Shown here piece after piece: positions 10,824-33,482 of a DNA stretch of 48,140 nt. The notes beneath the pieces are model-generated. The model worked only from the letters and a program-made list of their open reading frames with translations, did not search any database and was not told where the DNA came from. This stretch comes from Bacteroidia bacterium (GTDB lineage: Bacteria > Bacteroidota > Bacteroidia > CAIKAF01): positions 1-48,140 of the forward strand of contig JAUHWY010000001.1 of NCBI GenBank assembly GCA_030427255.1, written 5' to 3'. The first letter of the stretch is position 1; every line of letters starts with the position of its first letter. Both the position numbers and the translations under genes were made by a program.

Positions 10824-11450
10824 ATGATGCTTAGATACTTGGCTCTGGTATGTTTATTTGGCCTATTCGCTTGTGGCTCCGCTCGGAAAACCCCTTATCA
10901 TTGGGGCTTATCCATGGCAGATAGCACTTTTTTGGATAAACAGCCCATTCCTTTAACAGGTTATAATGAGTTTTTGACGTATTTCCTGTTTTTTAGAGGA
11001 GACACCGCTGCTTTTAAAGACAATTTTCCGGATACCATGCTGATACATAAAAAATACCCGGGCATGACCAACTCCTATAGGATCTTAAGGAATCCGATTT
11101 TAATAGACTCCGCTATAGTTGGTGTTACGTATTCTTCAGCCTTGGCATACAATAAGTGGAGAACCGAAATTGTGCGGGTAACGGACCCTAAATCAAGAAG
11201 GATTCTTTATAACCTTCCCGGTCCCGAAGACTTTAAAAAAGCAGAACGTCTGGCTGCAGGGCGAAACGATAAGGCAAACTGGAAGCACCTATTCGAAGGT
11301 CCTCCCGAATGGACCAATATTCCCGGCTACGTTTGGGTAAAATCCAATGAAGGCGGTCGTTTGGTTCAGGCTTCGGAAGTTCCGGCACATGAAATTACCT
11401 TTAGGTGCAAAGCGGAATTGCGACCTCCCATTTTGCCTCCTATCTTTTAA
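10824..11450 (+). CDS. Short GldJ/GldK-like (FGE-fold) lipoprotein, copy 1
   Basis: A 208-residue lipoprotein (lipobox GLFAC, Cys17). After the signal it reads TFLDKQPIPLTGYNEFLTYFL, FPDTMLIHKKYP, SAIVGVTYSSALAYNKWRTE, YNLPGPEDFKKAERLAAG and ends HEITFRCKAEL. These blocks match, in order, the pattern of the formylglycine-generating-enzyme-like domain of gliding lipoproteins GldJ/GldK (DE.EVTN..Y, LPDT..W, VVGVSW.QA..YC.WR, RLPTEAEWEYAARGG, GFRC), but those proteins are two to three times longer, so the central core is missing. It has its own promoter. Catalytic FGE activity is unlikely; a structural or binding role at the cell envelope is inferred. Similarity was judged by eye. Confidence 0.7.
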   Translation: MMLRYLALVCLFGLFACGSARKTPYHWGLSMADSTFLDKQPIPLTGYNEFLTYFLFFRGDTAAFKDNFPDTMLIHKKYPGMTNSYRILRNPILIDSAIVGVTYSSALAYNKWRTEIVRVTDPKSRRILYNLPGPEDFKKAERLAAGRNDKANWKHLFEGPPEWTNIPGYVWVKSNEGGRLVQASEVPAHEITFRCKAELRPPILPPIF

Positions 11451-11589
11451 GGACTTGGATTGAAAATAATCCCATGCGCTGTTGGTACTTCGGCAAGATT
11501 AAGCACACCTATTTTGTGTAGTCTTGAACCTCAAAGTCCTTAAACCTCATTTTTGGCTACGCTCTCTTTGGCGCAGGGACTGAGCCGGT
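11451..11589. repeat. Copy of an interspersed segment shared with 16321-16390
   Basis: 11523-11592 aligns with 16321-16390, beginning CTTGAAC and ending in an identical stretch, TCTCTTTGGCGCAGGGACTG, plus AGCCG. It abuts the decayed lipoprotein copy 2 precisely where homology to the intact paralogs starts, so it has replaced the promoter and signal peptide of that copy. Confidence 0.7.
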
Positions 11590-12192
11590 GCCTCCTACGC
11601 TTCAAGCCGGAGCTATACGGATAGGTATAATGCATTCCTAGCAGACAGCTTGTTTTTGGATAAGGCTCCGGTGCGAAACTTAGGATATCAGTTTTTTTTG
11701 TTTTCCCTTCAATATTACCGTGCAGACACCGCAGCTTCTGTAGAACATATACCGGACTCCTCCTTGATTCATCGGCGATACCCAAGCATTCATTCTCGCG
11801 TCCTGCCCTTCTTAAATTCTGCCTTTTTTGACTCCTCCATTGTGGGTGTATCTTTTGAAAAGGCCCAATCCTATTGCAGGTGGAGAGCAGAAGAAAGTCG
11901 TAGGGAAGTGTACCGCGAGTCAAAGGCCAGAAAAGTTTTGTTGGTTAAATACAGCCTGCCCGGTCCCGAAGACTTTAAAAAAGCAGAACGTTTGGCTGCG
12001 GGGCGAAACGATAAGGAAAACTGGCAATACCTATTTGAAGGCCCTCCCGAATGGACCAATATTCCCGGCTACGTTTGGGTGAAATCCAAAGAAGGCGGTC
12101 GTTTGGTTCAGGCTTCGGAAGTTCCGGCGCATGAAATTACCTTTAGGTGCAAAGCGGTACTGGTGCCTTGGACAGGTGCACCTGTGCTGTAG
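11590..12192 (+). pseudogene. 5'-truncated mini-GldJ/K lipoprotein, copy 2 (chimeric)
   Basis: From 11590 the sequence is homologous to the copy at 14077, starting at GCCTCC just before the lipobox Cys; everything upstream (start codon, signal peptide) is absent and the frame is closed by TGA at 11581. The lipobox Cys codon TGC has become TAC (Tyr, 11596-11598). The rest is open to the stop at 12190-12192. The front half (to about 11955) is nearly identical to copy 4 and the back half nearly identical to copy 1, so it is a recombinant. A TTG at 11650 could at best start a 180-residue cytoplasmic fragment. I regard it as a decayed or donor copy rather than an expressed lipoprotein. Confidence 0.8.
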
Positions 12193-12356
12193 ATTCAGCA
12201 AATTACCCTCTTTAAAACCGGTAGTGCTGACGTCTTGAGTTTCTATCTGTAGTGTTGAGTATATTTCTACTGTTGGACTGCCAAATAGCGTTAGAGCTGC
12301 GATTTAAATAGTAGAAGTAGTGATTCTGCTCTATTTCAACTTTTTTTTAGATTCTA

Positions 12357-12387
12357 TTGTTTTTTCAACCAAGGATTTTTAACTTAG
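12357..12387 (+). promoter_or_regulatory. Candidate promoter of the 12416-13959 operon
   Basis: TTG (12357-12359), a 20-nt spacer and TAACTTAG (12380-12387), close to TAnnTTTG, lie 28 bp before the ATG at 12416. The -7 box has one mismatch to consensus. The rest of the gap 12193-12356 shows no gene. Confidence 0.4.
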
Positions 12388-12415
12388 CAATAATAACATT
12401 CAATCTTAATTACTT

Positions 12416-13021
12416 ATGGCAACTATCCAAAGAAAAATCAATCCATACCTTCATGTAGGTACGTTAATGGAAGAAGGTTTAGGGTATGTTGGTACAAATC
12501 TTGGAACTCTATCTGTTGACAATTTGATTTCAGCAATAGGGGAATACATAAATACAATTGAGTTTAGTACCGACAATAGATTTGATGCCAACCTTATCAA
12601 TACCATAGGCTTATCAGCTATTGCATTGAATTCTTTTGATGAAAGTATTGATATGGATGATTTCGATAATGACGGCATTTATCAACTATTATCCAATGAC
12701 TCCGACAGCTTTACTAAGTATGAAGGTAATATTGAAACTATTGAAAATCGGTCTTTTCAAGATTGTGAAAATCTCGATATTGGTGCTCTTCAATTAGCTT
12801 GCATTATAGGAAAGTCATCCGCAAATTATTGGAAAGCACAGATAGACACTCCAGGTAGTTCACCCTGGCAAACGTATTTGCCTGGATCGTTTTCATCAGT
12901 TTATTCAAATGAGGCGATAAGAGGAGCCTTATTGTTTGTAACCAAAGGTTCTGGGCTAATGGGGATTCTTGCAGCTGCGCTTACTTTTTCGAGTTATGAA
13001 ATGGTTAAAGGATCCTTGTAA
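12416..13021 (+). CDS. Unrecognised acidic protein, first gene of a three-gene operon
   Basis: A 201-residue protein that I do not recognise. It has no N-terminal signal; the middle is rich in Asp/Glu/Asn (FDESIDMDDFDNDGIYQLL) and the C terminus holds one hydrophobic segment (GLMGILAAALTFSSYEMV, about 178-195) that could be a membrane anchor or an amphipathic helix. Base composition is distinctly AT-rich compared with the housekeeping genes. It is followed after 39 bp by the 95-residue gene, which overlaps lipoprotein copy 3, so all three are probably one transcript. Whether it is a cargo, immunity or effector-like protein cannot be told. Confidence 0.65.
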   Translation: MATIQRKINPYLHVGTLMEEGLGYVGTNLGTLSVDNLISAIGEYINTIEFSTDNRFDANLINTIGLSAIALNSFDESIDMDDFDNDGIYQLLSNDSDSFTKYEGNIETIENRSFQDCENLDIGALQLACIIGKSSANYWKAQIDTPGSSPWQTYLPGSFSSVYSNEAIRGALLFVTKGSGLMGILAAALTFSSYEMVKGSL

Positions 13022-13060
13022 CTTTATGCAAAAATTTTTAAATAAATAAAAATTGAAATC

Positions 13061-13348
13061 ATGGCAAAACCCTATAGAATAAGAAAAACAGAAACGGGCA
13101 CTACTGGTGGTGCTGTTTACACATGGTGGTGCAGGGATAACCCAGATATATGGGGTGAGACCGATTCTAAAGAGGTGGCAATTGCACAAGCAGAAGCAGC
13201 ATGTGGAGATAGATATGATATTGACAATCCAATTGCTAATATTGCACCTATTTCTTCGGTAAACCCTTCATTTAATTCTTGTGCGTCCTGTTCGAGAAAA
13301 ATTTCGCTTAAGAGCTCAAAATCAGATTTTCAATTTTTGTCGCCATGA
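13061..13348 (+). CDS. Unrecognised 95-residue protein coupled to lipoprotein copy 3
   Basis: A small protein without a signal peptide, starting MAKPYRIRKTETGTTGGAVY. It has two Trp in tandem (YTWWCRDNPDIWGE), an Ala/Glu helix with a Cys (AIAQAEAACG) and a C-terminal SCASCSRK. Its TGA overlaps the ATG of the lipoprotein gene (13345-13348, ATGA), the classical layout for translational coupling. It is AT-rich like its upstream neighbour. No family was recognised. The Cys-rich tail does not fit the CxPxR target motif of formylglycine-generating enzymes. Confidence 0.6.
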   Translation: MAKPYRIRKTETGTTGGAVYTWWCRDNPDIWGETDSKEVAIAQAEAACGDRYDIDNPIANIAPISSVNPSFNSCASCSRKISLKSSKSDFQFLSP

Positions 13349-13959
13349 TTATGCGCCTTTTACTTTTTACCATTGTTGTTTTTGCTGCTTCTTGCGTTTC
13401 AAACAGGAAAAGTGCTGAAGCCTATGGGCTATCCATGGAAGACAGTTTGTTTCTGGACAAACAACCCCTAAGGCATGTTGCCTACTTGGAGTATTTGCAC
13501 TACCTGAAGAGGGTGCGGTGCGACACAGCCGGCTTTTGGACTAGCCTTCCTGATACCATGTTGGTGAAACAAAGGCACCCCGGCTTAAACGCTCGCTTCA
13601 TTTTAAGGCATCATTCCTATTACGACACTTCTATAGTAGGTATTTCTTATGCCAATGCTATGGCCTACTGCAAGTGGCGTGGCGAAGTCGTGCGAAAAGA
13701 AGGTGGGCAGATTTATTACGATTTACCCGGTCCGGAAGATTTTAAAAGGGCCGAACGCCTAGCTTCCGGTAGAAAGGACAAAAACAACTGGAAATACTTA
13801 TTCGAAGGGCCGCCCGAATTGACCAATATTCCCGGCTACGTTTGGGTAAAATCCAAAGAAGGTGGTCGTCTGGTAGAGGCTTCGGATGTTCCGGCGCATG
13901 AAATTACCTTTAGGTGCAAAGCAGAGCTAATGCCTTATTCCGGAACTACTTTCTTTTGA
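13345..13959 (+). CDS. Short GldJ/GldK-like (FGE-fold) lipoprotein, copy 3
   Basis: A 204-residue lipoprotein (lipobox AASC, Cys17). It has the same blocks as copy 1: SLFLDKQPLRHVAYLEYLHYL, LPDTMLVKQRHP, TSIVGISYANAMAYCKWRGE, YDLPGPEDFKRAERLASG, FEGPPELTNIPGYVWVKSK and the terminal HEITFRCKAEL. The front half has diverged from the other copies while the last 60 residues are nearly identical to copy 4. It starts inside the stop of the 95-residue gene, so it is expressed as the third gene of that operon rather than from its own promoter. A second in-frame ATG at 13351 is also possible. Confidence 0.7.
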   Translation: MIMRLLLFTIVVFAASCVSNRKSAEAYGLSMEDSLFLDKQPLRHVAYLEYLHYLKRVRCDTAGFWTSLPDTMLVKQRHPGLNARFILRHHSYYDTSIVGISYANAMAYCKWRGEVVRKEGGQIYYDLPGPEDFKRAERLASGRKDKNNWKYLFEGPPELTNIPGYVWVKSKEGGRLVEASDVPAHEITFRCKAELMPYSGTTFF

Positions 13960-13984
13960 TGGTAGCACTTAGTCGGAAGGATTA

Positions 13985-13992
13985 TAACTTTG
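13985..13992 (+). promoter_or_regulatory. -7 box of lipoprotein copy 4
   Basis: TAACTTTG fits TAnnTTTG. The leader of about 78 nt contains a hairpin, CCAAAAAA (14007-14014) with TTTTTTGG (14022-14029). A TTTG at 13955 is too far upstream (26 nt) to be a good -33 box. Confidence 0.45.
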
Positions 13993-14076
13993 AATTCAAA
14001 TTTCAGCCAAAAAATTGGTGCTTTTTTGGTTGTTTAGCTTAAACATTAGTCTTTATTCATCCTAACATAAATCTCC

Positions 14077-14721
14077 ATGATTATTCGCTTGTTCCTCTTA
14101 TGTACTTTGATATTTTTTGCCTCCTGCGCTTCTAGCCGGAGCGATACAGACAAGTACAACGCAGCCTTAGAAGACAGCTTGTTTTTGGATAAGGCTCCTG
14201 TGCGAAACTTAGGATATCAGTTTTTTTTGTTTTCCTTCGAATATTATCGTGCAGACACCGCAGCTGCTGTAGAGCACATGCCGGACTCCTCCTTGATTCA
14301 TCGGAGATACCCAAGCATTCATTCTCGCACCCTGTACCGCATGAATTCTGTTTTTTTTGATTCTTCCGTGGTGGGTGTATCTTTTGAAAAGGCCCAAGCC
14401 TATTGCAGGTGGAGAGCAGAAGAAAGTCGGAGGGAAGTGTACCGCAAGTCAAAGGCTAAATGGACTTTGGTGGTTAAATATAGCCTACCTGCTCCTGAGG
14501 ATTTCAAAAAAGCCGAAGCCTTAGCAGTAGTAAACAAGGACGAAAACAACTGGAAATACTTATTCGAAGGGCCGCCCGAATTGACCAATATTCCCGGCTA
14601 CGTTTGGGTTAAATCCAAAGATGGTGGTCGTTTGGTGGAGGCTTCAAAAGTTCCGGGGCATGAAATTACCTTTAGGTGCAAGGCGGAGTTGCTACCTCGC
14701 AGCTTGCCTCCTATTTTTTAA
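14077..14721 (+). CDS. Short GldJ/GldK-like (FGE-fold) lipoprotein, copy 4
   Basis: A 214-residue lipoprotein (lipobox FASC, Cys17) and the best match to the FGE-like pattern: SLFLDKAPVRNLGYQFFLFS, MPDSSLIHRRYP, SSVVGVSFEKAQAYCRWRAE, KYSLPAPEDFKKAEALA and the terminal HEITFRCKAEL. In full-length FGE-fold proteins the segment after RLPTEAEWE runs another 100 or more residues before GFRC; here it is only about 60. It has its own -7 box and leader. It is probably exported and lipidated, facing the periplasm or cell surface. Its front half is the parent type of the decayed copy 2. Confidence 0.72.
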   Translation: MIIRLFLLCTLIFFASCASSRSDTDKYNAALEDSLFLDKAPVRNLGYQFFLFSFEYYRADTAAAVEHMPDSSLIHRRYPSIHSRTLYRMNSVFFDSSVVGVSFEKAQAYCRWRAEESRREVYRKSKAKWTLVVKYSLPAPEDFKKAEALAVVNKDENNWKYLFEGPPELTNIPGYVWVKSKDGGRLVEASKVPGHEITFRCKAELLPRSLPPIF

Positions 14722-28053: not shown

Positions 28054-28078
28054 AGCAACGCTTTTTACACAATTCGGA

Positions 28079-28105
28079 AGCCGACGCAGCTGCGTCGGCT
28101 TTTTT
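28079..28105 (+). terminator. Rho-independent terminator of metK
   Basis: A perfect 22-bp palindrome at 28079-28100 (half-site AGCCGACGCAG) is followed by six T from 28100, the only sharp stem-plus-T structure before the next gene. Confidence 0.93.
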
Positions 28106-28129: not shown

Positions 28130-28148
28130 ATATTGTTTTGAACAATAT
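28130..28148. promoter_or_regulatory. Palindromic operator candidate upstream of the MerR gene
   Basis: ATATTGTTTTGAACAATAT is a perfect inverted repeat of 8 bp on each side of a 3-bp spacer (19 bp in all), ending 54 bp before the GTG start. MerR-family proteins bind such palindromes, often at their own promoter, so autoregulation is likely but inferred. Confidence 0.5.
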
Positions 28149-28202
28149 AGGCCGGTAGCCTGTTTCATCCACGTTATTTATCCTTATAGCTTAGGCAAAA
28201 CG

Positions 28203-29108
28203 GTGGGACAGTATTCTATAAAAGAAATTGAACAGCTAACGGGCATCAAAGCCCATACCATTCGTATATGGGAACAGCGGTATGGTTTTGTGGAGCCACA
28301 CCGCACCGAAACCAATATCCGGTTTTACGATGATGAGCAACTTAAGCTCCTACTCAATATTAGTGCCCTTATTCGAAACGGAAGGAAAATTTCCCATGTT
28401 TCTAAGCTAAGCAAAGACGACATAAAGCAAGAGCTACAGCAGCTTACAAGCCAAAGCGACCAAGAACAAGACTATTACTCTCTGCAGGTGGATGCCTTGA
28501 TCGTGGCCATGATAGACATCGACGAGGCTCGTTTTGAAAAGGTAATCTCAAGCTGCACTTTAAGGTATGGATTTGAATCGGTAATGATTCACCTCCTCAT
28601 TCCTTTTTTGCATAAGGTGGGTTTGTTATGGACTACCGGCGAGATTAATGTTGCCCAAGAGCATTTCATTACCAACCTCATCCGCAGAAAGCTATTGGTA
28701 GCCATAGATGGTCATGTGGGCAAAAGACTTCAAAAGCAAAAGTTTATTTTGTTTTTGCCCGATGGAGAACTTCATGAAATTGGCCTGCTGTTTGCAAAAT
28801 ATCTAATCCGTAGCCGTGGTTTTCCCTTAATTTATTTAGGTCAATCGGTTCCAATGCATGACCTGCACGCCATCTGCAAAAGTTACAATCCAGATTTTTT
28901 GCTTACCTATTTCACCGTAGGATATAAGGCAGATCAGGTTAGGGAAGTGGTTCAAGAGATCTCAGAAACCTATCCCAAAACAAAATTCATTATTTCGGGG
29001 CCATTGGCCGGAGCCGCCGGTAAAACCTTACCCGATAACGTGTTTCGCATTGGACAAATCGAGGAAATGATTGCTTTTTTGAATAACATAACATTAAAGG
29101 AAGCCTAA
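28203..29108 (+). CDS. MerR-family regulator with cobalamin-binding domain (CarH/LitR-like)
   Basis: A 301-residue regulator with three parts. Residues 1-70 are a MerR winged helix (YSIKEIEQLTGIKAHTIRIWEQRYGF). Residues 90-170 match the four-helix cap of CarH/LitR with the W-x9-EH motif (Trp143, Glu153-His154), which in CarH shields adenosylcobalamin. Residues 180-300 are a B12-binding Rossmann domain with ELHEIG (E-x-H-x-x-G; His191 as the expected lower cobalt ligand) and YLGQSVP. CarH/LitR proteins repress genes in the dark and are released by light. The start is GTG at 28203. A perfect palindrome lies upstream. No carotenoid or photolyase gene is adjacent; two ECF sigma genes follow. Confidence 0.82.
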   Translation: MGQYSIKEIEQLTGIKAHTIRIWEQRYGFVEPHRTETNIRFYDDEQLKLLLNISALIRNGRKISHVSKLSKDDIKQELQQLTSQSDQEQDYYSLQVDALIVAMIDIDEARFEKVISSCTLRYGFESVMIHLLIPFLHKVGLLWTTGEINVAQEHFITNLIRRKLLVAIDGHVGKRLQKQKFILFLPDGELHEIGLLFAKYLIRSRGFPLIYLGQSVPMHDLHAICKSYNPDFLLTYFTVGYKADQVREVVQEISETYPKTKFIISGPLAGAAGKTLPDNVFRIGQIEEMIAFLNNITLKEA

Positions 29109-29123
29109 GTCTTTCTTATACAC

Positions 29124-29393
29124 GGAGACCGTTGACGCGTTGTGTTTTCAAGCTTTTTGTCCTGACCGTAGCCTCCGTGCGAATTAAGGCACGGTTAAAA
29201 TAAAAGTCTCCTGACGCTTCGATCAGGATAGTCTAAAGTTCACTGGTTGTAAATGAGGACCCCTGACGCTTAGGTCAGGACAAAGTGTTTGAGATTTGGC
29301 CGTAACGCAGACCCTGACGTTACAGTCAGGGTTTATAATCCTTACCGCAGCGTCAGGGCAGGATCGCCGCCAGAATAGCAACGGGTCAACGGT
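29124..29393. repeat. Interspersed GTCAGG element, copy C, with matching inverted ends
   Basis: The best-preserved copy, 270 bp. The ends ACCGTTGACGCGTTG (29128-29142) and CAACGGGTCAACGGT (29379-29393) are inverted repeats matching at 14 of 15 positions. Inside are CCTGACGCTTCGATCAGG, CCTGACGCTTAGGTCAGG and CCTGACGTTACAGTCAGG hairpins. There is no open frame of note; the element does not encode a transposase. Confidence 0.8.
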
Positions 29394-29469
29394 CGCACAC
29401 TGCTCCCATTAATTTATTGGTTATTAAGCGATGGTGCATACTGCGGTTCAATCGCCTCCTATTGCCAAG

Positions 29470-29565
29470 GGAGACTGAGAGCTGTGACGCATTGTGTTAT
29501 TGTGGATAAGCCTGACCTTACTCTTAGGACAAGATGGCAGACAGAATCGCATCGCATCAACAGTG
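29470..29565. repeat. Interspersed GTCAGG element, copy D (degenerate)
   Basis: It begins GGAGACTGAGAGCTGTGACG and ends GAATCGCATCGCATCAACAG; the ends are weakly inverted, and a single GCCTGACC half-site remains inside. It directly follows copy C. Confidence 0.55.
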
Positions 29566-29692
29566 TAAAGCGGTGTGCTTTTAACCTCTCCAGCTTGATC
29601 CTAAAATTGGCTGTTGGAAGGATTCCGTAAAACCGTACCTATGTTAAGAAAATGAAATTCGGCCTTTAGAGCCACTTTTCTTGTTTAATCAA

Positions 29693-29725
29693 TTTGGATA
29701 AATATTAAACAAAAGCATATCTTTG
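29693..29725 (+). promoter_or_regulatory. Promoter of the first ECF sigma gene
   Basis: TTTG (29693-29696), a 21-nt spacer and TATCTTTG (29718-29725) closely match the Bacteroidota consensus. GGAGG at 29730-29734 is a ribosome-binding site 7 nt before the ATG at 29742. Confidence 0.75.
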
Positions 29726-29741
29726 AAATGGAGGTATGGTT

Positions 29742-30263
29742 ATGAAAACAACAGCATTTAATTTTCAGAATGAAGTAATAGCACTTAAAGATCCCCTTAG
29801 GTACTTTGCTTTAAGTCTCACACACGACGATAATGATGCCGACGACCTGGTGCAAGAAACCATGTTGAAGGCGCTCATTTATAAGGACAAGTTCGCAGAG
29901 AATACCAATCTCAAAGCTTGGCTGTTTACCATTATGAAGAACCTCTTTATCAACAATTACCGCAAAAAGACTAAGGTGCGCATGATTTTTGATGGAAGTA
30001 AGGAGCTCTTTCAGCTAAATGTTCCCGAAACTAAAAAAGCTTATGACCCTGATGCACAAATCAATTACAAGCAAATTCAAGAAGCAATGGACGCTTTGGA
30101 TGAAGAGTATAGAAAGCCGCTTCGCTTGTATTTTGAAGGGTACAAATACAAGGAAATTGCGGATATGTTGGAACTACCCATTGGAACGGTAAAGAGCAGA
30201 ATCTTTTTAGCCCGCAAGCAATTGGTTCAACCTTTAAAAGCCTTTGTTCATGAGCATTCTTGA
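29742..30263 (+). CDS. ECF-type RNA polymerase sigma factor (paralog 1)
   Basis: A 173-residue group IV sigma factor. Region 2 reads DPLRYFALSLTHDDNDADDLVQETMLKAL and NTNLKAWLFTIMKNLFINNYRK; region 4 reads YFEGYKYKEIADMLELPIGTVKSRIFLARKQL. ATG 29742 is chosen because GGAGG is 7 nt upstream; ATG 29736 is too close to it. No anti-sigma gene is adjacent, so control is probably at transcription. It is a close paralog of the next gene and is followed by a terminator, so the two are separate units. Sigma factors of this type are often found near MerR-B12 regulators in Bacteroidota, to my recollection, which would fit light control. Confidence 0.9.
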   Translation: MKTTAFNFQNEVIALKDPLRYFALSLTHDDNDADDLVQETMLKALIYKDKFAENTNLKAWLFTIMKNLFINNYRKKTKVRMIFDGSKELFQLNVPETKKAYDPDAQINYKQIQEAMDALDEEYRKPLRLYFEGYKYKEIADMLELPIGTVKSRIFLARKQLVQPLKAFVHEHS

Positions 30264-30351
30264 TACTGTTTAACCTTTTAACGTTTTTTGACCATTATGG
30301 AGACTCAAGGTTAAACACATACAAGTTACTGTAAATAGGGTACTTAGTTTG

Positions 30352-30379
30352 AAAAAGCGGCTTTTTAGCCGCTTTTTTT
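30352..30379 (+). terminator. Rho-independent terminator after sigma paralog 1
   Basis: AAAAAGCGGCT (30352-30362), a TTTT loop, AGCCGCTTTTT (30367-30377) and further T. Confidence 0.92.
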
Positions 30380-30444
30380 GATTGTAGGTACTTTTATTGT
30401 GTTTAACTTTTTATATCTTAGCTGTAAACAAAAGCGCAACAGTT

Positions 30445-30981
30445 ATGGCACAGTCTTCTTTCAATTTTTCAGCAGAAGTTATTGCATTCCGGGAGCCTTT
30501 AAGGTACTACGCTTTAAGTCTCACCTCAAGTAGAGAAGAGGCAAATGACTTGGTTCAAGAAACCATGCTTAAGGCATTTACCTACCAAAAGCGCTTTAAG
30601 GCCAACACCAATTTGAAAGCGTGGCTGTACACCATCATGCGCAATATCTTTATAAATAATTACCGAAGAACTCAAAAGTTTCGCACCATTGTAGATACCA
30701 CCAAAGAGTCTTACTACTTAAACATTCCTCAATCTACCAAAGATCCTAACAATCCGGAATCAGCCCTCCGATATAAGGAAGTGTACCGCGAAATGAATGC
30801 CCTTACCGAAGATTTCAGAGTTCCACTCATTATGTACTTCGAAGGCTTTAAATACAAGGAAATTGCCGAAAAGCTGGATTTGCCTATTGGCACCGTAAAA
30901 AGCAGAATATTTTTGGCTAGAAAACAAGTGGCTCTCGCTTTGCAAGACACGGAGAAGCTTCCGGTAGCTCAAGCTTCATAA
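30445..30981 (+). CDS. ECF-type RNA polymerase sigma factor (paralog 2)
   Basis: A 178-residue group IV sigma factor, closely similar along its length to the previous gene (EPLRYYALSLTSSREEANDLVQETML, NTNLKAWLYTIMRNIFINNYRR, YFEGFKYKEIAEKLDLPIGTVKSRIFLARKQ). The most variable part is the linker between regions 2 and 4. ATG 30445 (MAQSSFNF) is preferred over an upstream GTG at 30397, whose added residues do not match paralog 1. It is flanked by terminators, and a TATCTTAG box at about 30414-30421 may be its promoter. No anti-sigma gene is adjacent. Confidence 0.9.
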   Translation: MAQSSFNFSAEVIAFREPLRYYALSLTSSREEANDLVQETMLKAFTYQKRFKANTNLKAWLYTIMRNIFINNYRRTQKFRTIVDTTKESYYLNIPQSTKDPNNPESALRYKEVYREMNALTEDFRVPLIMYFEGFKYKEIAEKLDLPIGTVKSRIFLARKQVALALQDTEKLPVAQAS

Positions 30982-31035: not shown

Positions 31036-31116
31036 GCCCCAAACCCAATCAAATTTACTTAAGGTCCTGCTTCCTATTTTCTTTGGGTACTTGTATGCTT
31101 AACTCCAAAGAATTAG

Positions 31117-31190
31117 ACCGTTAATACCTTGTGTTTTTAAGTTTTTAATCCTGACCGGAGGACCGCCGCCAGCATAGCAAGGCATCAACA
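31117..31190. repeat. Interspersed GTCAGG element, copy E (internally deleted)
   Basis: The ends ACCGTTAATACCTTG (31117-31131) and CAAGGCATCAAC (31178-31189) are inverted, and AATCCTGACCGGAGG and CCGCCGCCAGCATAGCAA remain inside. The central hairpins of the longer copies are missing, leaving 74 bp. Confidence 0.7.
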
Positions 31191-31370
31191 AACTCAGAAT
31201 TTCAATCGGAATAAACCAACATCCTACCTGCTTAAAAGTAGACGACTCTTTTAGGGAATGCTTAGGACTTGACTGTGTCAAATAAGTGACCACTCCTTTG
31301 AAAAGATACAGTGGCAAACCCACTTAGGCTTTCAGGGACATCCCAAAAGCAAGCGGTTTTAAGCATGTTA

Positions 31371-33482
31371 TTAACGGTTCGATTTTCTAAACTGGGCAGC
31401 TCGGAAACGGTAGCGAACCTGAACTTTAAAATCACTACGTGTATTTCCCTGTATTTCATCTAGGCCGGAACCTACGGTTTCCCTGTCAGGGAAATAGGTT
31501 TGAGACCACCTGAGCCATAGGGTTAAACTGCGACTGATCTCCCATTTAGCATTCAAATAGGTACGCATTCCCTCTCCGGAAAAGCCCGGTACAGTGAAAC
31601 TATACAGCACATCGTTTTCGTAGGTATAGACTCTGGTGTCGAAGCCGTCGGTCTGAAAAAAGGCAATTCTACCCGAAAAATCCACAGGAATCTTACGAGG
31701 CTTGTACACTACATCTTGGTAAACCAAAAAACCAAACTCATCTGCCGGGCGATCGGGGCGGGACTGATGCACCAATTCCAAGCGGTTTCTCAGTTGCAGC
31801 GTGCGCGAAACCCTAAAGGTGAAATTGAATCGGTAATTGGTTCTCCCAAACTGTACGGTTTCTGGAGTGATTGGGTCGCGTTCGTCATCGTCGGGACGAT
31901 ATTGATGCCTCACCCGAATGTAGGACTCCAATTTGTTATTGGGAATGAAAGAGGCTTGAAACAAATACTCATAGCCTTTAGATGGAGTAGATATGCCAAA
32001 CCTTGCCCAAGGATAGCTAAAGAGGTCAAAATAGCCCTGAAATTTGAAATACTTAATGGGCGTAGTTTCAAAACCGATGTACAAGCCTTCCTCGTTTTGA
32101 GTTCCAAACCTATCCGATATAGCATTCGAATTTAAGTTCTGATAATCTCGGGCAAAGTTTCGATACAAAGCGGCAAGACTAAAGTTGGGGTGTAGGGAGG
32201 CCTGCATGCCCTGCAACATGGCCAAGCCCCCATTATCGCTCATGGAAATTTCGCCAAACAAATAAAACTTGTTTAACAATAAATCGTAATCTACACCGGC
32301 ATTAAACAGTTTGTCTCCTGCAAACTCGTACAAATTATATATCTGGTCATTCGGTGTAATGGGTGCAGAAAACTGCGTGCTGTAGGCCGTGGCTCCCAAA
32401 TTGAACTTTCCTGCTCTCCAGGTTACGTTCCCTCCAAACATGGTTTCGTCCAATGCATTCTTCTTGCTCAACTCCGATTCGGTACGGTGCAATCCGGACA
32501 ATAAAAAGGAACTGAACTCCAAAGCCTCACCGGTGAGGGTATCTAATTGCGCAATTCCTCCGTCGATGGGTTTATGGCTTACAAAGGCAGTTACATCTAC
32601 AGGGCCCAAGCGCACTTCTGCTGCTGCTCCACGGTTAAAGGTAAATTGATTGGTGGCCGTATATTGCCTCAGACCAACGGCAAAACGTTTAATGTTCATG
32701 GTATAGGCAGTTTTTCTAAAACCAATACCTGTCCACATTGTTAGGCCCTGCCCAAATTGCAACTGGTAGTCTCCAATGGCAATTTTTCTAAAAATGCCAA
32801 CGTCCCTTAAAAAAAGGTGGGCTGAATAAAAGTCAAAGCCCTGCGGCTGAGTGCCTCCAAACCAATCTTCTCCTCGGTCTTTTTCAGCTGTGAAGCCAAG
32901 GCTTACTTTATCCTTATAACGAAAGCGATACCGCAAAAATGTTTGGTAAGAGGGCCCTAAATATCCATCGGTTGGGTCTTCTTCGTTTCTTCGAAATCCC
33001 TCTTGTTGTTCCAATACATCGTAAAACCTGGCTACGAGTTCGTGCTTGCCGTAAAGCCAAACACTTTTTAATTTGGTTTTCTTTTTTTCTTCTACCGGCG
33101 CCACCTCCAAAAAGGGCAGCAACATATACACCATTTCGTTGTCCCAGCCTCGGATATAATTAATTTCATATATAGAGAGCAGAGGACCATTAATAGAAAG
33201 GTAGGTTTGAAGATTCTTAATTTGCAGTTCTGTAATTAAATTCAGCCTACGTAAATCGTCGGCATCTGCTGCATTAAGGTTGATAGGGTGGTCGTAAAAA
33301 TAATTGAGGTCTTCCACAAAAGTGGTATAGTCAATTTCATTTTCGGCGTTTTCCGAGATGGTTTCAATCAACCGCTCAATGATGTTTTCTTTTAGCGGGT
33401 CATTACTGCCACCGCTTTGCCCCCATAGGCTTGAAGACCCTAGGCAAAGCATAACGCTTAAGCAAACAATAAGGTACTTCAT
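31371..33482 (-). CDS. Outer-membrane protein with helix-hairpin-helix segment
   Basis: A 703-residue protein starting at ATG 33482 with a signal peptide ([22 protein letters not shown]). Residues 60-120 contain a ComEA-like helix-hairpin-helix (INLNAADADDLRRLNLITELQIKNLQTYL), followed by a long run of amphipathic beta strands with aromatic ends, ending VRYRFRAAQFRKSNR. This looks like a barrel with an N-terminal periplasmic HhH. Its start overlaps the stop of the upstream gene by 4 bp (ATGA). Function is unknown; a link to DNA uptake is only suggested by the HhH. Confidence 0.72.
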   Translation of the reverse strand: MKYLIVCLSVMLCLGSSSLWGQSGGSNDPLKENIIERLIETISENAENEIDYTTFVEDLNYFYDHPINLNAADADDLRRLNLITELQIKNLQTYLSINGPLLSIYEINYIRGWDNEMVYMLLPFLEVAPVEEKKKTKLKSVWLYGKHELVARFYDVLEQQEGFRRNEEDPTDGYLGPSYQTFLRYRFRYKDKVSLGFTAEKDRGEDWFGGTQPQGFDFYSAHLFLRDVGIFRKIAIGDYQLQFGQGLTMWTGIGFRKTAYTMNIKRFAVGLRQYTATNQFTFNRGAAAEVRLGPVDVTAFVSHKPIDGGIAQLDTLTGEALEFSSFLLSGLHRTESELSKKNALDETMFGGNVTWRAGKFNLGATAYSTQFSAPITPNDQIYNLYEFAGDKLFNAGVDYDLLLNKFYLFGEISMSDNGGLAMLQGMQASLHPNFSLAALYRNFARDYQNLNSNAISDRFGTQNEEGLYIGFETTPIKYFKFQGYFDLFSYPWARFGISTPSKGYEYLFQASFIPNNKLESYIRVRHQYRPDDDERDPITPETVQFGRTNYRFNFTFRVSRTLQLRNRLELVHQSRPDRPADEFGFLVYQDVVYKPRKIPVDFSGRIAFFQTDGFDTRVYTYENDVLYSFTVPGFSGEGMRTYLNAKWEISRSLTLWLRWSQTYFPDRETVGSGLDEIQGNTRSDFKVQVRYRFRAAQFRKSNR

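Follow-up and report, generated by a model that had tools for sequence, protein, structure and literature searches.

The DNA analyzed here is a 48,140-nucleotide stretch (the window) of a Bacteroidia bacterium with a 3.22 Mb genome that is 99.6% complete; its nearest named relative is a congener, the Flavobacteriales MAG L007. The genes run from metK through a terminator and a MerR-family regulator gene to two ECF sigma genes (Table 1). Both sigma factors contain sigma-70 regions 2 and 4 (PF04542 and PF08281, Pfam), which places them in the ECF family. They are paralogs, and no anti-sigma gene adjoins either one. The original prediction had described the paired sigma genes in this way, and had also noted that the window lacks crt and photolyase genes, which our analysis bears out. 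It had further placed a near-consensus promoter 5' of the first sigma gene, but we found no sigma-70 consensus promoter upstream of ECF 1; the inverted repeat TGTTTA-N18-TAAACA lies there instead.

Several other repeats and gene clusters were seen in passing. Dispersed intergenic repeats of the form CCTGACGC...GCGTCAGG and ...TCAACGGTC occur at window positions 29109-29735 and 31100-31400, and also 5' of a second crtI-like gene (L034). A cluster of four or more small, related lipoprotein-like genes lies at 10824-14721 of the window, with paralogs ending in ...EITFRCKAELxP.... Elsewhere in the source genome, short tandem DNA repeats between genes read ...RREASRLYLIIHH... in spurious ORFs.

Table 1. 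Features of the MerR-ECF locus (window coordinates) and, in the last row, tandem repeats at other loci.
Feature	Position	Strand	Remarks
Terminator-like hairpin 3' of metK, parting metK from the MerR gene	28076..28103	+	
8+3+8 palindrome of the original prediction	28130..28148		right half TGAACAAT from 28139
CarH/LitR-like MerR regulator, 301 aa, GTG start	28203..29108	+	Pfam MerR_1 and B12-binding_2; PDB CarH, E 2e-29; model compared with 5c8e; signature residues
Proposed operator 1, TGTTTA-N18-TAAACA, 5' of ECF 1	29682..29711	.	identical in L007
ECF sigma factor 1 (ORF opens at 29736)	29742..30263	+	PF04542 and PF08281
Further half-site pair, TGTTTA at 30267 and TAAACA at 30312	30267..30317	.	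also in L007
Proposed operator 2, TGTTTA-N19-TAAACA, 5' of ECF 2	30400..30430	.	arms and spacer identical in L007
ECF sigma factor 2	30445..30981	+	PF04542 and PF08281; 58% identity to ECF 1
Tandem repeats reading RREASRLYLIIHH	L030 371-1696, 16015-16365; L109 11824-12189; L031 13428-13706		

The MerR protein and its photoreceptor-signature residues

The MerR protein has the domain plan of this regulator family, with a MerR helix-turn-helix, a helical cap, and a B12-binding domain (Pfam MerR_1, 4.5e-16; B12-binding_2, 1.2e-11; B12-binding, 30.4 bits, slightly below the cut-off of 32.1). Its closest relative of solved structure is CarH from Thermus thermophilus (PDB 5c8d, E 2e-29). An AlphaFold model of the protein (mean pLDDT 85) aligned to the CarH-DNA complex 5c8e over 270 residues, with a Z of 20.6 and an rmsd of 6.8, the high rmsd probably reflecting a different placement of domains in the model. 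The B12 domain of the model matched that of the light-responsive CtMerR from Chloracidobacterium (8jbs) with a Z of 20.7 and an rmsd of 3.2 over 215 aa, and rmsd values ranged from 2.5 to 3.2 across several B12 photoreceptors, CtMerR included. The NCBIfam CarH equivalog NF052513 scored 125.3 bits against a curated cut-off of 400; we describe the window protein as CarH-like, short of CarH proper.

The motifs named in the original prediction are present, with an intact Wx9EH (W143, E153, H154) and the form of D/ExHx2G that carries the lower-ligand His (E189-x-H191-x-x-G194). Light-responsive cobalamin domains share an experimentally validated signature, GxxW/EH/GxxH/GxxxP, defined with SignatureFinder (PMC11796333), and all four of its elements are found in the MerR protein (G140-W143, E153-H154, G188-H191, and G213-P217). 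The core of this signature (the Trp, the EH, and the ligand His) is retained in 123 of 126 Bacteroidia homologs. The structure comparison and the signature thus lend good support to the reading of the protein as CarH/LitR-like.

Other positions deviate. The classic B12 motif is degenerate in its second half (x41 SxT/V, x22-27 GG), which reads YFT and SG. A comparison with CarH at the Trp and His positions found Trp143 and the ligand His191 kept, but the residue after the Trp is Thr144 and not the His of the bis-His light state, which is common but not universal. The SxT and GG positions diverge in most Bacteroidia homologs too, and because the same positions vary in relatives encoded within carotenoid operons, we regard the deviations at SxT, GG, and the His as a property of the clade and not as the mark of a dead gene. 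The protein type is a known one, and by its residues the window protein would bind AdoCbl and respond to light. The genome encodes methylmalonyl-CoA mutase-type enzymes that depend on AdoCbl, so the cofactor should be present. A photolyase gene lies close to AdoCbl-dependent methylmalonyl-CoA mutase genes at another locus (L031 3354-8992, G000:C5).

An inverted repeat 5' of the sigma and rhodopsin genes

Pattern-based scans of the source genome recovered exactly three perfect copies of TGTTTA-N18/19-TAAACA, in the promoters of the first sigma gene, the second sigma gene, and a rhodopsin gene. Since a reversed control pattern also occurs three times in this genome, the case for the element rests on its location and conservation. 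The third copy, at G000:C21:2814-2843, lies 50 bp 5' of a gene of the bacteriorhodopsin family (PF01036, 1.6e-44), and the next gene encodes a Blh-type beta-carotene dioxygenase (PF15461); this pair is unlinked to the MerR locus. The rhodopsin stretch DWLLTVPLMCVE, read by eye, would correspond to the DTE motif of a proton pump. All six genomes of the genus carry the rhodopsin gene, as do none of the other ten genomes of the order, and in each of the six the element is found directly 5' of it with no more than one mismatch (chance ~0.007 each). In the closest relative of the source genome, the rhodopsin element has the same arms but for one change and a diverged spacer, a pattern that selection on the arms would produce. 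At this promoter the left arm follows a TAnnTT sequence exactly in the manner of the Bacteroidota -7 box (TACTTTTG).

With the same tolerance of one mismatch, the element precedes all 16 ECF genes examined from the order (chance ~0.012 per promoter) and four of four crt-linked ECF genes in relatives (chance ~0.012 each). It was retained in one genome (G001) whose ECF gene has been relocated away from the MerR gene, and in Dyadobacter it lies 5' of a MerR-crt operon. These patterns make TGTTTA-N18/19-TAAACA the likely operator. The full element is found 5' of the MerR gene itself in two of 13 loci of the order, and MerR autoregulation through it is therefore not a general rule there. In the source genome, a search at the same tolerance found no copy before crtZIBY on C17 or before the photolyase genes on C5, C13, and C44.

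The half-site TAAACA agrees with that of CarH, TnnACA (PMC9304148). We also considered a tandem direct-repeat operator in the style of CarH (nnnnTnnACAn), but 11-bp direct repeats were not enriched, with four pairs in 125 promoter contexts against 2.6 expected; the arrangement is an inverted repeat with an 18-19-nt spacer instead. Arms near MerR genes are almost always TGTTTA. In Mucilaginibacter-type loci, where the recognition helix reads RIWERRY, both arms are altered together to TGTCTA-N-TAGACA, and TGTCTA is found exclusively with this helix (two of five such loci). Because two RIWERRY proteins accompany TGTTTA, helix and arm sequence are only loosely linked, and we treat the association as suggestive, no more.

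Distribution and gene context across Bacteroidia

We searched 198 genomes spread across the class for an extended form of the element, TTGTTTAA-N16/17-TTAAACAA, and found 131 sites, compared with five for the reversed control. A profile search for the MerR protein was positive in 118 genomes. Both were present in 76 genomes, the MerR protein only in 42, the site only in two, and neither in 78 (Fisher p ~4e-21, a value that ignores shared ancestry). Thus, 76 of the 78 genomes with the extended element carry the MerR protein, while the strict extended form is absent from 42 of the 118 MerR-bearing genomes; in one of the two site-only genomes the site is intragenic.

When 30 loci were picked by pattern alone, the sites lay upstream of ECF, MerR, crtZ, crtI, folE, rhodopsin, and pterin genes, and few others; the pterin genes, which resemble 6-pyruvoyl-tetrahydropterin synthase genes, were named by eye. 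Over all loci, a set that is enriched for MerR neighborhoods, 139 promoter sites comprised 81 before ECF genes, 26 before MerR genes, eight before crtI, five before folE, and three before rhodopsin genes. The folE gene (GTP cyclohydrolase I) is preceded by the element in several genomes (L104, G011:C17, 2471-2500; L148, L190, L194, L196), and genes like that for 6-pyruvoyl-tetrahydropterin synthase in others (L146, L172, L173). At these genes the element may serve the supply of pterin cofactor to photolyases. In G001 and G002 (L090, L092) the genes near it, judged by eye, encode DUF4397-like surface proteins and are possible further members of the regulon. A photolyase/cryptochrome gene in another genome has a copy across its start codon, possibly by chance (L107, G015:C74, 2357-2386); this genome has a MerR gene and no linked ECF gene.

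The gene neighborhoods of relatives back the predicted tie between MerR and ECF genes. Among Cyclobacteriaceae, Salibacteraceae, and further relatives, the MerR gene is the first of MerR-ECF-crtI-crtB operons, and idi and photolyase genes often follow; in Dyadobacter and Mucilaginibacter it is immediately 5' of crtI. In the order of the source genome, 13 of 16 genomes have the MerR gene, usually as MerR-ECF(1-2) and often after metK, with crt genes not nearby. The carotenoid genes of the source genome lie elsewhere, as crtZ-crtI-crtB-crtY on C17, and it has three photolyase-family genes.

Competing explanations and a proposed model of light control

The original prediction proposed that the MerR protein controls itself through a perfect 8+3+8 palindrome 55 bp 5' of its gene. 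The palindrome is exact, but the window contains three such palindromes where first-order Markov sequences would give 1.9, and in the congener, whose MerR protein is 93% identical, the right arm alone survives. With about two expected per window and the left arm lost in the congener, the palindrome is probably not an operator, and the chance that the MerR protein regulates itself through it seems to us close to negligible. A genome search for ATATTGTT-N3-AACAATAT near other genes gave its best other matches inside coding sequence (C41:6642 and C5:57253), and the sole part of the palindrome that recurs 5' of related MerR genes is a TGAACAAT-like half-site. For the 30-bp element, co-occurrence with the MerR gene is no proof of binding, and the known operator of CarH is made of direct and not inverted repeats, so the element could be bound by some other regulator found in the same genomes as the MerR gene. 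We consider this highly unlikely, given that the element adjoins the MerR gene in many genomes, directly 5' of it in 26 cases, and that its half-site fits TnnACA.

The element could also be a promoter read by the ECF sigma factors, which would then govern themselves and an ECF regulon, and not an operator for the MerR protein. The many copies before ECF genes (81 of 139) fit this idea, as does its presence at 54 of the 62 MerR loci where an ECF gene is linked versus 23 of the 70 where none is. However, sigma promoters are asymmetric, whereas the element is a symmetric one whose two arms have changed in concert in Mucilaginibacter-type loci. Moreover, the element is kept in 14 of 20 crt-linked MerR loci that lack an ECF gene within ~2 kb, although those genomes may have one elsewhere, which makes the MerR protein the better candidate reader and the sigma-promoter explanation an unlikely one. 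An improbable alternative of a different kind accepts the MerR protein as regulator but takes it for a B12 or redox sensor of cobalamin supply, and not of light, in keeping with the replaced SxT and GG and the missing light-state His. Nearly all homologs nevertheless retain the adenosyl-contacting Trp, the EH, and the signature, and the genes of the regulon (rhodopsin, crt, crtZ, folE) have to do with light. CtMerR, moreover, is light-responsive through a reported light-state chemistry other than the bis-His state of CarH (PMC11796333).

We therefore return to a light-responsive MerR protein acting on the inverted repeat. From its family and signature, and from the element's locations, conservation, and co-occurrence with the MerR gene, we infer that the window protein binds AdoCbl and the element, represses, and responds to light. 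In the dark, the AdoCbl-bound protein would repress promoters by sitting on the inverted repeat, which lies at the promoter or a short way downstream; light would break the cobalt-carbon bond and release it. At 21 of 109 sites the left arm follows TAnnTT, in the way of the Bacteroidota -7 box TAnnTTTG, and the right arm is often near the start codon, so that binding should block transcription. Direct targets in the genus would be the two adjacent ECF sigma genes and the unlinked proteorhodopsin-Blh pair, and light would thus turn on a sigma cascade together with the light-driven proton pump. The sigma factors would extend the response to further genes; the carotenoid and photolyase genes of the source genome, which have no direct site, may be expressed constitutively or through the sigma factors. 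Related Bacteroidia would use this operator to control crt, folE, and pterin genes. We hold this model as a whole, a CarH-like AdoCbl-dependent dark repressor whose release in light switches on ECF sigma and proteorhodopsin genes, to be likely. With somewhat less assurance, we favor the view that the photoreceptor switches the proteorhodopsin-Blh pair of the genus directly, and that the 30-bp inverted repeat is the operator through which it acts and the mark of a light regulon found across the class Bacteroidia. The original prediction had left the target open; with the 30-bp element common to them, both sigma genes and the proteorhodopsin-Blh pair are now strong candidates.

The window protein resembles CarH of T. 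thermophilus, an AdoCbl photoreceptor and crt repressor, in domain order, fold, Wx9EH, ExHxxG, the four signature motifs, and the half-site TnnACA, and its relatives share a carotenoid/photolyase regulon with CarH. Unlike CarH, it has SxT and GG replaced and a Thr in place of the His that caps the cobalt in the light state, and its putative site is an inverted repeat, not tandem 11-bp direct repeats, with ECF and rhodopsin genes as predicted targets. CtMerR has the same combination of MerR and B12 domains and the validated signature (PMC11796333). CarA of Myxococcus xanthus shares the MerR-B12 architecture, and its operator has been described as inverted repeats (PMC9304148), but CarA is B12-independent and lacks the Trp of Wx9EH, which the window protein has. 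The arrangement at the locus, a B12-type MerR gene adjoining an ECF sigma gene without an anti-sigma partner, is like that of LitR-LitS.

In Streptomyces, the MerR/B12 regulator LitR controls the ECF sigma gene litS; here the phylum is another, the sigma gene is duplicated, and the crt genes are unlinked. Light affects the growth of some proteorhodopsin-bearing Bacteroidota. A literature search returned no paper naming a photoreceptor for rhodopsin gene control in such bacteria, and nothing direct on a link between CarH/LitR and rhodopsin or on LitR with ECF factors in Bacteroidota. By that search, the putative inverted-repeat operator with its 18-19-nt spacer, the predicted class-wide regulon, and the proposed proteorhodopsin link appear to be new. 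A candidate sensor, a precise candidate operator, and a list of target genes can now be named for the control of rhodopsin in Bacteroidota. Our results suggest that, in Bacteroidia, regulation of the CarH type works through an inverted-repeat operator and extends past carotenoids to energy capture and pterin synthesis, and they suggest how some bacteria may switch on light harvesting.
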